Assembly (NCBI GenBank): GCA_030828565.1 | Contig: JAURCF010000009.1 | Location: forward strand, 1-38,466 | Length of the DNA: 38,466 nucleotides | Source: Flavobacteriaceae bacterium | GTDB taxonomy: Bacteria; Bacteroidota; Bacteroidia; Flavobacteriales; Flavobacteriaceae | Reading direction: 5' to 3' | Part shown: positions 17,779 to 22,631 of the stretch, in pieces | How the letters are laid out: every line of letters starts with the position of its first letter | How positions within the stretch are numbered: the stretch's first letter is position 1 | The notes under the pieces: generated by a model | Told to the model about the DNA's origin: nothing | The model's input: only the letters and a program-made list of their open reading frames with translations | The model's database searches: none | Program-made: the position numbers and the translations under genes

Positions 17779-17807
17779 TTGAATGTAAGCAGATAGTTAC
17801 ATCTTTG
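17779..17807 (+). promoter_or_regulatory. Promoter for the PorV/PorQ-family gene, three bases from its ATG
   Basis: TTG (17779-17781), an 18-base spacer and CATCTTTG (17800-17807) match the Bacteroidetes -33/-7 pattern with one mismatch. The ATG of the downstream gene is at 17811, so a transcript starting at the usual distance after -7 would have almost no leader. Confidence 0.45.
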
Positions 17808-17810
17808 CAT

Positions 17811-18878
17811 ATGCTTCGAACAATATTCCTTATTGGTTGTATCGGTGTTCTATATCAATCGACACATGCACAAGCCGTTCGCAAATACTCCAATGAATTT
17901 TTGAACATTGGTGTTGATGCGCGCGATTTTGGAATGGCTAACGCAGTAGTGGCATCCACAAACGATGTAAGCGCAACTTACTGGAATCCAGCGGGATTAA
18001 TGAACTTGAGAGATACTCAACTAAGCCTAATGCACGCTAGTTATTTTGCCAATATCGCACAATACGACGTTATTGGAATGGCTAAACCTATAGACAACCG
18101 AAGTGCTGCAGGAATCACATTATTGCGGTTTGGAGTAGATAATATCTTAAACACCACTCAACTTATTGACAGTCAAGGAAATATTGACTACAATCGAATC
18201 ACTAAATTTTCTGCTGCTGATTATGCGCTTATCATTTCCTACGCTCGAAAATCATTAACAAAAAATTATACCTACGGCATCAATGCTAAAATTATACGAA
18301 GAATCATTGGTGATTTTGCTTCGTCTTGGGGTTTTGGATTTGATATTGGAATTCAATTTTCACACAATTCGTGGTCTTTTGGACTTACCGCCAGAGATAT
18401 TACTACTACACTCAACTTTTGGCAAGTAGATACTCAAATATTTGATACGGTTAGTCAAGAATTGCCCGAGCAAGAAGCCCCAGAAACTTCCGAAATTACA
18501 CTGCCAAAAATACAGCTAGGGGTTGCTAAAATGTTCGAATTGAATCGAAGGTATTTTTTGCATACCGAACTGGATTTGAATATGCGATTTACAAAAACCA
18601 ACGACATCATATCCTCAAAAGCTGTTAGTGTTTCCCCAGCCTTGGGCATAGAACTTCAGTATGATGATTTTATTTTTTTACGAACCGGCCTTGGAAATTT
18701 TCAAAATGAACTTCAATTTGACAACTCAAATTCCGTAACTTTCCAACCCAATATAGGTGTTGGAATTATGTACAAAGGAATTGAAATCGACTATGCCCTA
18801 ACCGATATTGGAAACCAAACTACAGCTCTATACTCTAATATTTTTTCAGTAAAAATTAATTGGCAATATTTTCGTTAA
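17811..18878 (+). CDS. PorV/PorQ-family outer-membrane beta-barrel protein
   Basis: A 355-residue secreted protein. MLRTIFLIGCIGVLYQSTHAQA is a signal peptide, cleaved near THA/QA; an in-frame TTG six bases upstream is not needed. The mature start SNEFLNIGVDARDFGMANAVVASTNDVSATYWNPAGL is the characteristic PorV/PorQ (UPF0164-like) N-terminal block. The rest alternates short beta strands and ends KINWQYF with a C-terminal aromatic, as in outer-membrane barrels. Family members include the type IX secretion shuttle PorV. This one is more generic and no other T9SS gene is in the window, so a role in secretion is only possible. Confidence 0.82.
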   Translation: MLRTIFLIGCIGVLYQSTHAQAVRKYSNEFLNIGVDARDFGMANAVVASTNDVSATYWNPAGLMNLRDTQLSLMHASYFANIAQYDVIGMAKPIDNRSAAGITLLRFGVDNILNTTQLIDSQGNIDYNRITKFSAADYALIISYARKSLTKNYTYGINAKIIRRIIGDFASSWGFGFDIGIQFSHNSWSFGLTARDITTTLNFWQVDTQIFDTVSQELPEQEAPETSEITLPKIQLGVAKMFELNRRYFLHTELDLNMRFTKTNDIISSKAVSVSPALGIELQYDDFIFLRTGLGNFQNELQFDNSNSVTFQPNIGVGIMYKGIEIDYALTDIGNQTTALYSNIFSVKINWQYFR

Positions 18879-18925: not shown

Positions 18926-20494
18926 ATGAAAAAACATATATTTCTTTCTATACTTTCAGGCTTACTGTTGGGATTGTCATGGCCAACATACGGAGTTAGT
19001 TTTTTGATTTTTTTCAGCTTTGTTCCTCTGCTTGTTTTAGAAACACAACTTCGCTCTTCTTCTTGGAAGGTTTTTGGGTACACCTACTTAAGCATGTTAA
19101 TTTGGAACTCCATGACAAGCTGGTGGTTGTGGTATTCTTCCGTGTTTGGAATGTTTTTCGCTATTCTTGTCAATTCTCTTTTGATGACCATGGTGTTCAT
19201 GATGTATCACAAAATCTCTAGAAAACTTCCAAAAAAAACCGCTTTTCTATTTTTGCCTGCCATTTGGATTTCATTTGAGAAATTTCATTTGATATGGGAT
19301 TTTTCGTGGCCTTGGCTTAATCTTGGAAATGTATTCTCAGAAACCACCTTATGGATACAATGGTACGAATACACGGGTTCGTTTGGAGGCAGTCTTTGGA
19401 TTTGGGTTGTTAATTTACTTTTCTTTAATGCTATCATACGGTCTTCAAATAAAAAAATATTGTTAAAAAAAGTAGCTACTACCTTGCTGGTCGTTGCAAT
19501 TCCCATTGCTATTTCACTCGCTATTTTTCAAAAAACCACCATTCAAACAAATACTCCCATTTCAGTGGCTGTTCTTCAGCCAAACGTTGATCCTTACACC
19601 GAAAAATACAATCAAAAAAATGAGGAATCTCTTGCTGTTGTTCAGCAAATGATGGCTCCTTATAATATGAATTCAATTGATTTAGTAATAGCCCCCGAAA
19701 CATATTTTGCAGAAGGAGCTGGCCTCTCTTTGCGAAATTTTGAAACTTCAACACTATACAAATCGATAGATGATTGGCTATCCAATTACCCTAAAACGCA
19801 ATTTGTTACAGGAATTCAATTGTTTAAAACCTACACTAGTGAAGATACCAAAACAGCCACTTCTAACTTGATTCGAGAACAATTATGGGTTGATTTTTAC
19901 AACAGCGCATTCATCCATCCTTCATTTGATGAAAACACAATTTATCACAAATCAAAACTTGTTGTAGGAGTAGAAAACACCCCGTATCGTTCCATCATAG
20001 AACCAATTTTAGGAAATGTACTTTTGGATTTGGGAGGAACTGTCTTTACCAAAGCAACTCAAGAATATCGAACTTCATTTCCACTAATTAAAGGGGCTAG
20101 CATTGCTCCCATTATCTGTTATGAATCTGTTTACGGAAGTTTTGTGACAGACTATGTAAGGGCCGGAGCAACAATTTTAGTAATAATGACCAACGATGCT
20201 TGGTGGAGCAATACACAAGGACATAAACAACACCTTAGTTACGCTAAATTACGAGCTCTTGAAACACGAAAATTTATTGCGCGAAGTGCCAATACAGGAA
20301 TTTCAGCAATCATTGATCCTCTTGGAAAGATTGTCACCCAACTGGAATATGATACTCAGGGCGTATTAGTTTCTAGGGTTTACCCACAACAAAAAAAGAC
20401 GTTTTACGTGCTTTACGGAGATTTCATTGCTCGCATTGCAATTCTTATTGCGGGTTTGATTTTACTATTTTCAATTTCTAGAAGAAAACAGTAA
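18926..20494 (+). CDS. lnt: Apolipoprotein N-acyltransferase
   Basis: Adds the third acyl chain to lipoproteins in the inner membrane. The 522-residue protein has about six N-terminal spans (to about 200), a periplasmic nitrilase-like domain (about 210-475) and a final span (about 500-517). The catalytic triad is intact: Glu258 in IAPETYF, Lys344 in YHKSKLVVG and Cys398 in PIICYES. WPWLNLGN in the membrane part and MTNDAWW (421-427) are also diagnostic. It serves the lipoproteins encoded nearby (M3 peptidase, DUF1573, MsrA). The next gene starts at the very base after its stop. Confidence 0.95.
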   Translation: MKKHIFLSILSGLLLGLSWPTYGVSFLIFFSFVPLLVLETQLRSSSWKVFGYTYLSMLIWNSMTSWWLWYSSVFGMFFAILVNSLLMTMVFMMYHKISRKLPKKTAFLFLPAIWISFEKFHLIWDFSWPWLNLGNVFSETTLWIQWYEYTGSFGGSLWIWVVNLLFFNAIIRSSNKKILLKKVATTLLVVAIPIAISLAIFQKTTIQTNTPISVAVLQPNVDPYTEKYNQKNEESLAVVQQMMAPYNMNSIDLVIAPETYFAEGAGLSLRNFETSTLYKSIDDWLSNYPKTQFVTGIQLFKTYTSEDTKTATSNLIREQLWVDFYNSAFIHPSFDENTIYHKSKLVVGVENTPYRSIIEPILGNVLLDLGGTVFTKATQEYRTSFPLIKGASIAPIICYESVYGSFVTDYVRAGATILVIMTNDAWWSNTQGHKQHLSYAKLRALETRKFIARSANTGISAIIDPLGKIVTQLEYDTQGVLVSRVYPQQKKTFYVLYGDFIARIAILIAGLILLFSISRRKQ

Positions 20495-20965
20495 ATGCTT
20501 TACAAGCTCTACTCTTATTTAAAATATGTGTGGTTATCCAAAAACCAGCACGGTGTTCACTCTCCGTTTGTTTATGATTTAATCACAAAATCTATTTACA
20601 CACAATCCAAAACAAACAAATCCAAAAAAAAACGCATAATTGAGGGGATTTTTCAACATGTTACAATAAAGTCTTATAAAAAAGTAGGAAATCCGTTTAT
20701 GAGTTTTGATTCTAGTAAAATTCAATATTCGACAGACGGTTTACAATTGATTCATATAGAAAATCCTACGCTGATACGCTCTTTAAAAAAGGAAACAAAT
20801 CAACTAATAGTGATTGAAAAAATACATCATAACAGGCATTTTGAAAACAATTGGAAGGTGTTCTTAAAAAGTCAACCCAAAATAATTTCTTTGGATTTTT
20901 TTGTAATAGGGATTGTTTTTGCAAAAGACACTCAAGCTAAGGAGCATTTTATTCTTCGAGCGTAG
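20495..20965 (+). CDS. Shortened methyltransferase-family protein lacking the SAM-binding core
   Basis: A 156-residue protein whose ends resemble a flavobacterial class I methyltransferase family of about 220-250 residues. The N terminus MLYKLYSYLKYVWLSKNQHGVHSPFVYDLITKS matches the family's opening (the NQHGVHSPFVYDL block). The end DFFVIGIVFAKDTQAKEHFILR matches its closing strand. The glycine-rich SAM-binding segment and the Asp-rich active region expected in between are absent. In their place are a Lys-rich stretch (TNKSKKKR) and about 60 unrecognised residues. The frame is intact and abuts the lnt stop, so translation is likely coupled. It may be a non-catalytic remnant or a decayed gene. 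The family match is from memory. Confidence 0.6.
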   Translation: MLYKLYSYLKYVWLSKNQHGVHSPFVYDLITKSIYTQSKTNKSKKKRIIEGIFQHVTIKSYKKVGNPFMSFDSSKIQYSTDGLQLIHIENPTLIRSLKKETNQLIVIEKIHHNRHFENNWKVFLKSQPKIISLDFFVIGIVFAKDTQAKEHFILRA

Positions 20966-21048: not shown

Positions 21049-21597
21049 ATGAAAATTTACACAAAAACTGGCGATCAAGGTATGACATCACTTTACGATG
21101 GGATACGTATTTCCAAAAGTGATTTGAGGATGGAGTGCATCGGTACACTTGACGAATTAAATTCATGGATTGGGCTCTTATTATCGTCCAACAATCAGGC
21201 AAATCAAAAAGAAGAATTGGAAAGGATTCAAAATGAATTGTTTCAAATTGGAGCTCAACTAGCAGTAAAAAAAACAGAAAATAGCAAAGAAAAGATTGTA
21301 AAAAATAACAATGAAGTCGTGTGGCTTGAAGATTGTATTGATCGCATTGAAAAAGAATTGCCCAAAATGACTCATTTTATACTCCCTGGTGGAAATACTG
21401 AATCATCACAAGCTCATATTGCTCGCTGTGTTTGCAGGAAAACGGAGCGCTATGTGGTATTGCTTCATTCTTACGAACCCATCAATGAAACCATCCTAAA
21501 GTATCTCAATCGTCTTTCTGATTATTTATTTGTCTTGTCTCGAAAAATAATTTTGGATAGTGGCATCAAGGAAAAAAAATGGTATTCAGAAAAATAA
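21049..21597 (+). CDS. Cob(I)yrinic acid a,c-diamide adenosyltransferase (PduO type)
   Basis: Transfers the adenosyl group of ATP to cob(I)alamin, making coenzyme B12. The 182 residues contain the N-terminal ATP-binding motif KIYTKTGDQGMTSLYDG (2-18), the central GTLDELNSWIGLL and the C-terminal LPGGNTESSQAHIARCVCRKTERYVV, with the Arg and Asn/Asp residues of the trimeric PduO active site. No cobalamin synthesis gene is near, so it probably services an imported corrinoid for an AdoCbl enzyme elsewhere, such as methylmalonyl-CoA mutase. In related genomes this gene sits next to the DUF2795 and secA genes; here a GT90 gene lies between. Confidence 0.93.
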   Translation: MKIYTKTGDQGMTSLYDGIRISKSDLRMECIGTLDELNSWIGLLLSSNNQANQKEELERIQNELFQIGAQLAVKKTENSKEKIVKNNNEVVWLEDCIDRIEKELPKMTHFILPGGNTESSQAHIARCVCRKTERYVVLLHSYEPINETILKYLNRLSDYLFVLSRKIILDSGIKEKKWYSEK

Positions 21598-21647: not shown

Positions 21648-22631
21648 ATGGGCTTTAGAAAAATATTTTTTGGTCACAAAAACAATAAAATTCAATATTA
21701 TTCTGTAAACTATTTAAGACAACTGATTCCCTCTAAATTTTTTCAAAATCGAAGGAAAATCAAACTGAAAATATTAGAATCTCTTCCAAAAGTAGATGTC
21801 GAAAAAATACTGCATCGCGTAAACTACTACAACCAACTGGAAAATTCAGTTCCCTTGAGTTCAAATGCAGAAAAGCTATCAAAAGTGAAGCTAAACAAAG
21901 CTTCGAAAGTTTACTTTTTTGATTTGTATGAATACGCTCGGTTTTTCAATCAGCAATTAAAAAGTCATTTTTTATTTGGAGATATCACTTACGTTCCAAA
22001 TCAACCAAGCTTGGTCAAAAGTCGTCCTGTTTCTAGTAAAAACAATAATTCAGTGGTTTTAAAATGGGACAAGGTTCGGCATTTTATGTTTATTAAAAAT
22101 GACAAAAAACAATTCTTACAGAAAAAAGACAAGTTAGTTTTTCGAGGAAAAGTATTTCCCAATCAAATTCATAGAGTTGCATTTCTAGAAACTTACAGCG
22201 ACCATCCAATGTGCGATATTGGAATGACAAATGAAAACAAGCTCAATCCGTTGTGGAGAGTAAAAAGAATGACCATCGACGACCATTTGGATTACAAATT
22301 CATTCTTTCCTTGGAAGGAAACGATGTTGCCACCAACTTAAAATGGGTAATGTCTTCCAATTCCATTGCGGTAATGCCAAAACCCAAATTTGAATCGTGG
22401 TTTATGGAAGGGCTTTTGATTCCCGACTACCACTATATTTTGATAAAAGATGATTATTCAGACTTATTCGAAAAGCTGGAATTCTACATCAAAAATCCTG
22501 ATAAAGCTGTCAAAATTGTGGAAAATTCTAAGCATTACATAACGCAATTTCAAAACAAGAATCATGAAGATATAATTTCGTTATTGGTATTAGAAAAGTA
22601 CTTCAAAAAAAACCAGCAACTTCTTCACTAA
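21648..22631 (+). CDS. GT90-family glycosyltransferase (LpsA/CAP10-like)
   Basis: A 327-residue cytosolic or membrane-peripheral glycosyltransferase of the lipopolysaccharide A protein / CAP10 family. The C-terminal half holds the family hallmark YKFILSLEGNDVATNLKW (216-233) followed by MSSNSIAVMPKPKFESWFMEGLLIP (235-259), the nucleotide-sugar-binding region. The basic N terminus (MGFRKIFFGHKNNK) suits membrane association. Family members add a xylosyl or hexosyl residue to LPS or capsule cores; the donor cannot be predicted. It lies 50 bases after the adenosyltransferase gene and 130 bases before the DUF2795 promoter. Gene neighbours point to envelope glycan work. Confidence 0.85.
   Translation: MGFRKIFFGHKNNKIQYYSVNYLRQLIPSKFFQNRRKIKLKILESLPKVDVEKILHRVNYYNQLENSVPLSSNAEKLSKVKLNKASKVYFFDLYEYARFFNQQLKSHFLFGDITYVPNQPSLVKSRPVSSKNNNSVVLKWDKVRHFMFIKNDKKQFLQKKDKLVFRGKVFPNQIHRVAFLETYSDHPMCDIGMTNENKLNPLWRVKRMTIDDHLDYKFILSLEGNDVATNLKWVMSSNSIAVMPKPKFESWFMEGLLIPDYHYILIKDDYSDLFEKLEFYIKNPDKAVKIVENSKHYITQFQNKNHEDIISLLVLEKYFKKNQQLLH

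Follow-up and report, generated by a model that had tools for sequence, protein, structure and literature searches.

Related methyltransferases and described pseudoenzymes

The closest described relatives of the protein family analyzed here are class I O-methyltransferases of the Methyltransf_24/Methyltransf_3 kind (TrmR/YrrM, COMT, and CCoAOMT), to which the long members of the family belong by both profile and fold. Some members are far shorter, and one of these is encoded in a 38,466-nucleotide stretch of DNA from a Flavobacteriaceae bacterium (assembly GCA_030828565.1, contig JAURCF010000009.1), which is hereafter called the window. Compared with TrmR/YrrM, COMT, and CCoAOMT, the short form retains the β1-4-5-6-7 half of the fold. 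Strands 2-3, the cap, the SAM loop, and the acidic residues are missing from it, and an HGxHSPF segment at the N terminus and one further strand at the C terminus are additions. The flavobacterial full-length ortholog, which is found in an ABC-F/pduO/secA locus, has its ends and, in most loci, its neighbors in common with the short form, but is ~100 residues longer and carries all of the catalytic motifs; no more precise annotation of it was found in the libraries searched.

Pseudoenzymes are already known. The fungal Dis3L2/Ssd1 pseudonucleases are reported to have lost catalysis at least four times independently, with a proposed bifunctional ancestor and conservation of another region (PMC8097288). 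The present family is similar to that account in the repeated independent loss of catalysis, the proposed bifunctional ancestor, and the other region that was kept. However, Ssd1/Dis3L2, as presented there, involves active-site mutations in fungal nucleases, whereas here a bacterial methyltransferase lost the core itself, and its second function is putative. Searches of one open-access library gave no description of this bacterial family, as judged by titles and the opening of abstracts. The short form is a pseudoenzyme variant that arose recurrently from a known enzyme fold, and the notable part is the repeated removal of the catalytic core in place.

Genomic context of the short gene

The short gene is an open frame on the forward strand of the window (positions 20,495-20,965; 156 residues plus stop). 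Its ATG directly abuts the TAA stop (20,492-20,494) of lnt (18,926-20,494, forward strand; TIGR00546, E 1e-59), which confirms the initial annotation of an intact frame beginning immediately after the lnt stop. This junction is identical in G001, another genome of the same genus, and is a one-base overlap in G021. Downstream are genes for a PduO-type cob(I)alamin adenosyltransferase (21,049-21,597, forward strand; TIGR00636, E 8e-57), which is a conserved neighbor, and a GT90-type glycosyltransferase, followed by a gene that we take to be secA from its sequence. The Glyco_transf_90 gene (21,648-22,631) sits between pduO and secA; in G001 (locus L196), secA is located ~450 bases after pduO, and no intervening ORF of ≥75 aa is listed. 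This difference is a recent insertion or a loss. Upstream of lnt, positions 17,805-18,878 encode an outer-membrane protein whose match to the type IX secretion system protein PorV (E 4.7e-5) was sub-threshold.

The pduO and secA genes were found together in 142 of the 181 fetched stretches, around long and short forms alike. A gene encoding an ABC-F ATPase was directly upstream in 31/42 long loci and 97/133 short loci, and its match in G021 showed 68% identity. The ABC-F protein was considered as a necessary partner and rejected because, although it is upstream in most loci, no close ortholog was found in either G000 or G001 of the window genus (best matches with 34 and 33% identity, respectively).

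The protein can be divided into three parts, all encoded on the forward strand. The N-terminal end (residues 1-40; 20,495-20,614) consists of two helices flanking the motif HGVHSPF (residues 19-25; bases 20,549-20,569); it is conserved in short and long forms and is the slowest part in the comparison with G001. The fast-evolving middle (residues 41-101; 20,615-20,797) contains a third helix and remnants of strands β1 and β4, which survive with β5, and the segment table, alignment, and model indicate that the cap, the Gly-rich SAM loop, and strands 2-3 are missing from it. The C-terminal end (residues 102-156; 20,798-20,962) comprises strands β5 to β8, as assigned from column conservation, motif counts, and the model. 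It carries the motif D-x4-G-x2-F-x-[RK]-x2-Q-x-K-E-x-F-x-[IL]-R (residues 134-155), and the active-site DD of the ancestor is missing from it.

Long and short relatives

The ORF had no methyltransferase match in Pfam, where a single sub-threshold match to LptC was obtained (E 0.053), and it matched 0 families in NCBIfam. At E ≤ 0.01, matches were found in 64 of 99 related genomes and were of two kinds. Long frames of ~256 aa matched the ORF solely at residues ~1-40 and 100-155, and shorter frames of ~150-210 aa mostly matched it from end to end, including the G001 homolog, which is also 156 aa in length and shares 65% identity with the window protein. The three long relatives that were scanned belonged to Methyltransf_24 (E 1.6e-11 to 8.2e-14). 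The resemblance of the ORF ends to a flavobacterial class I methyltransferase, as initially annotated, is thus borne out, and because Methyltransf_24 relatives of ~256 aa match at the ends only, the pattern of two kept ends and a missing core is beyond chance. Both ends of the protein are homologous to those of the flavobacterial long methyltransferase, and the genomic locus is common to the two, as expected of orthologs. The deletion reading would be undermined if relatives encoded the same short protein and no longer homolog; short relatives do exist, but so do longer ones, and since the latter are numerous and many share the locus, this objection falls away.

The gene is widespread. A profile search across the family gave a match in 359 of 397 genomes at E ≤ 1e-5, and the places among the matches listed span at least 750 bases; the profile of the short forms matched 336/397 at E ≤ 1e-8, with at least 65 places under ~660 bases. 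The gene was absent (no match at E ≤ 1e-5) from 38/397 family genomes, or 18 of the 330 good ones. The named loci are the best 80 of 441 stretches confirmed after a scan whose pattern includes HG[VI]HSPF. Of these 80, 78 carry an intact short frame (148-212 aa), and the other two are a long form (L108) and a frameshifted gene (L105). By title, the genera represented include Maribacter, Muricauda/Allomuricauda, Flagellimonas, Arenibacter, Zobellia, Aquimarina, Polaribacter, Myroides, Capnocytophaga, and Galbibacter. At the level of the phylum, matches at E ≤ 1e-5 occurred in 100 of 296 genomes. Of the more distant families, f17 and f18 have long and short forms and f20 and f25 have short ones, and among these four the pduO neighbor was present in f25 only.

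Several individual loci deviate from this picture. In Maribacter litopenaei HL-LV01 (L105, 5001-5488), the short gene is frameshifted near its 3' end, which is a sequencing error or a fresh loss. The contig of L108 (CALPUN020000073.1) is titled Bifidobacterium breve, yet the long form that it encodes is flavobacterial, pduO and secA accompany it, and the SecA tree places L108 among Flavobacteriaceae; the contig comes from a mislabeled or contaminated bin. The reverse case was observed in L278 (6463-7116), where a 218-aa frame has the core but is missing the N-terminal motif, and the long relatives L283 and L284 have a degenerate N-terminal motif. Because this motif is degenerate or absent in some long relatives outside the family (L202, L240, L278, L283, and L284), it is not required everywhere.

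Catalytic motifs and predicted structure

Column conservation and motif counts were obtained from 175 of the 181 stretches, as L105, L189, L202, L240, L241, and L242 were dropped by a motif-based filter, and the counts, those of the long forms included, are therefore partly ascertained. Some genomes appear in both L031-L110 and L143-L242; the number 125 used below counts distinct proteins. Among the 42 long proteins, the cap motif D-x-G-x-GS was present in 41 and the SAM loop, the DGNH-type motif, and the DDI-type motif were each present in all 42. Among the 125 distinct short proteins, the cap motif and the SAM loop were present in none, the DGNH-type motif in one, and the DDI-type motif in three, while HGxHSPF was present in 119 (partly by ascertainment) and the C-terminal motif in 104. 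Of the 125, 55 were obtained not through the motif scan but by sampling genomes or from the window itself, and their counts were as follows: cap, 0; SAM loop, 0; DGNH-type, 1; DDI-type, 2; HGxHSPF, 49; C-terminal motif, 40. A pattern for the acidic residue after β2 fit just 8/42 long proteins and was left unused as uninformative.

By column, the short forms lost the former active-site stretch that follows β5, and over half of the cap segment was gone in 21/21 aligned short representatives. The positions that are 90-100% conserved in short forms are W120, D134, G139, F142, R144, Q147, K149, F152, I154, and R155; the window protein has K at position 144. Forms of other lengths retain different amounts of the enzyme: L197 (230 aa) is near full length but has none of the catalytic motifs, and L184, L088, L098, and L192 (204-215 aa) retain different parts of the core.

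The window protein has no methyltransferase profile match, no Gly-rich loop, and no acidic residues at β4/β5, and so lacks these sequence marks of an active class I SAM-dependent methyltransferase; it is an enzyme homolog without the catalytic motifs, as expected of a pseudoenzyme. The absence of the Gly-rich SAM-binding loop and the acidic active region, as initially annotated, thus holds for the window protein, and that of the loop for every distinct short protein. The related claim of an internal deletion holds in part: the protein is a reduced class I methyltransferase, in frame and with its ends kept, but its middle is an eroded remnant and not a clean join.

Structure prediction pointed in the same direction. 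The AlphaFold2 model of the window protein, built with 79 short forms, is a confident reduced fold (pLDDT 90.4, pTM 0.85) in which three helices are followed by strands at residues 58-64, 83-88, 103-108, 130-134, 138-143, and 150-154. The predicted sheet is without strands 2-3 and the Gly-rich loop is also gone, so that the model is not the complete SAM-binding fold that would have contradicted a deletion. The long relative L108 is modeled as a methyltransferase fold, with confidence low in two stretches of sparse alignment rows (63-72 and 138-158); by VIA-align, this model matched CsFAOMT1 (Z 13.7) and TrmR (Z 13.5). Among solved structures, TrmR also gave the best profile match (8k1f, E 6e-7). 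The best COMT-type match of the short model by VIA-align had a Z of 7.2 over 102 residues, which is weak taken alone but consistent with a reduced version. A Foldseek search with the short model found nothing at E ≤ 0.001.

Selection on the short forms

The short forms are under purifying selection. Between the window and G001, the whole short gene had a dN of 0.245 and a dS of 1.33 (NG86). Residues 1-40 had a dN of 0.077 and a dS of 1.13 (dN/dS ~0.07), residues 41-100 a dN of 0.39 and a dS of 0.86 (dN/dS 0.45), and residues 101-156 a dN of 0.238 with saturated dS. In 11 named pairs with a dS of 0.2-1, dN/dS was 0.16-0.47. Across 56 named pairs, which are non-independent, dN was lower than in the middle at the N-terminal end in 52 and at the C-terminal end in 55, and the N-terminal end was faster than the middle in four. 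The very close pair L073/L075 (dN and dS both 0.01) had too few changes to judge.

The constraint on the ends of the short forms is nevertheless partly relaxed, with a subset of residues kept, because at equal SecA divergence they are less conserved than the ends of the long forms. At a SecA identity of 0.85-0.90, the identity of the N-terminal end was 0.57 in short and 0.71 in long forms, and that of the C-terminal end was 0.49 and 0.82, respectively. This relaxation is what would be expected of a decaying pseudogene, in which use as an enzyme was lost and the gene is eroding, its frame still open by recency or by coupling to lnt. The same explanation can draw on the L105 frameshift, on the absence of the gene from some good genomes, and on a rate of change above that of the neighbors: amino acid identity to G001 was 65% for the short gene, but 96% for SecA, 89% for the compared part of lnt, and 86% for PduO, and dN/dS values (as dN over dS) were 0.022/0.82 for secA and 0.054/0.99 for the compared lnt part. 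However, decay is unlikely given that short frames are open in almost all named loci, that whole multi-genus clades are filled by short forms, that dN/dS is low in the 11 close pairs and at the N-terminal end of the window pair, and that specific residues remain almost invariant. The window gene does not look like a pseudogene, as its frame is open and its dN/dS against G001 is well under 1 (at a high dS), and the dN/dS values and the open frames in the named loci show maintenance by selection, as in a pseudoenzyme.

The initial annotation had left two outcomes side by side, a retained role of the terminal parts and a gene caught mid-decay. The latter is unsupported, as short forms are widespread, almost always open, and under purifying selection. 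The former is favored over decay as the more probable reading. What stands of the initial reading as a whole is thus the observation itself and a reduced methyltransferase with retained ends, but not mid-decay.

Copy number and possible enzymatic activity

The short protein might still be enzymatically active. It could catalyze a different reaction, or it could be half of a split methyltransferase and obtain the core from another gene. The invariant polar residues at the ends would fit such a role. Moreover, many short-form genomes contained other matches, which were core-only O-methyltransferase-like proteins, and stronger matches in G021, G327, and G434 were proteins of 276-287 aa that aligned from profile position ~29 or 50 onward. 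On the other side, the SAM loop and cap are absent from the entire set of distinct short proteins, and in G000 and G001 the profile at E ≤ 0.001 (in G000 also at E ≤ 10) yielded only pieces of the short gene, so that no core partner was seen in these two genomes. Residual or split enzymatic activity is therefore improbable. A second full-length, end-to-end copy was not found in any of the 47 short-form genomes searched (47/47). A second copy in the window genome had been considered and was rejected, as both profile matches were two pieces of one ORF.

Repeated loss of the catalytic core

The short forms arose more than once. On a SecA tree of 93 rows (out of 143; the 158-169 aa class was represented by 18 rows drawn at random and by further selected rows), the long/short state changed at least five times. 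On a tree of 61 hand-picked rows under a mixture model, in which the lengths of L189, L202, L240, L241, and L242 were set by hand, in part by estimation, at least four changes were required, and a single clade of short forms was rejected (p-AU 5.6e-175). The additional change in the 93-row tree may rest on L106, which has a long branch, or on L108, which covers 38% of the SecA columns. Separate short groups were the order-level family f8 (202-205 aa), a Polaribacter group (160-204), L182/L183/L089 (186-189), which are nested among long forms, and a large group that includes the window, Galbibacter, and Maribacter. With a single origin rejected by the SecA tree, the core was lost on several occasions, a recurrence that the initial annotation did not foresee. 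The tree itself gives no direction; we infer loss because the core is homologous to known methyltransferases and its regain is implausible.

That short forms instead arose once or twice and spread horizontally into the locus, as the same two ends in all of them might suggest, is very improbable, since most lineages with flanks have the identical locus, different parts of the core are retained by lineage, and, in the short forms, the identity of the ends tracks that of SecA (4851 non-independent pairs; Spearman 0.66).

Proposed function and implications

The window protein is likely a pseudo-methyltransferase, namely an in-place descendant of a class I O-methyltransferase-like enzyme of ~256 residues that was kept for a putative non-catalytic binding role. 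In this proposal, the ancestor would have been bifunctional, with ends that also had a putative binding function. The SAM-binding and catalytic core would have been lost, the catalytic residues and the cap segment possibly first and the Gly-rich loop and strands 2-3 later, and the N-terminal helices and terminal strands would remain as a single folded unit. This unit, in long and short forms, may bear a surface that binds a partner, which could be a protein, RNA, or some other ligand. Methyl transfer could be dispensable while the role is still selected because the ends would carry the binding surface; once a lineage could do without methyl transfer, the core would decay and the ends would stay under selection. 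The long-form enzyme probably shares the putative non-catalytic binding role of the short form. RNA is one reasonable candidate partner, given that TrmR-type tRNA methyltransferases are the closest relatives of solved structure by profile, and a protein partner is as likely.

The repeated in-place removal of the core from an apparent single-copy ortholog is a natural experiment, of which intermediates of about 230, 215, 205, 185, 165, and 155 residues survive, and this series of forms sorts the conserved residues into catalytic ones and those otherwise used. The repeated loss with the ends kept suggests that the ends have a second job beyond methyl transfer. More tentatively, the HGxHSPF ... 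Q-x-K-E-x-F-x-I-R ends may constitute an unrecognized stand-alone binding module, in which case many Bacteroidia would possess a bifunctional enzyme whose methylation is dispensable and whose enzyme part was repeatedly cut out while the module was kept. If the proposed reading is true, the full-length protein, which is so far known just as a methyltransferase, is predicted to have a second function.
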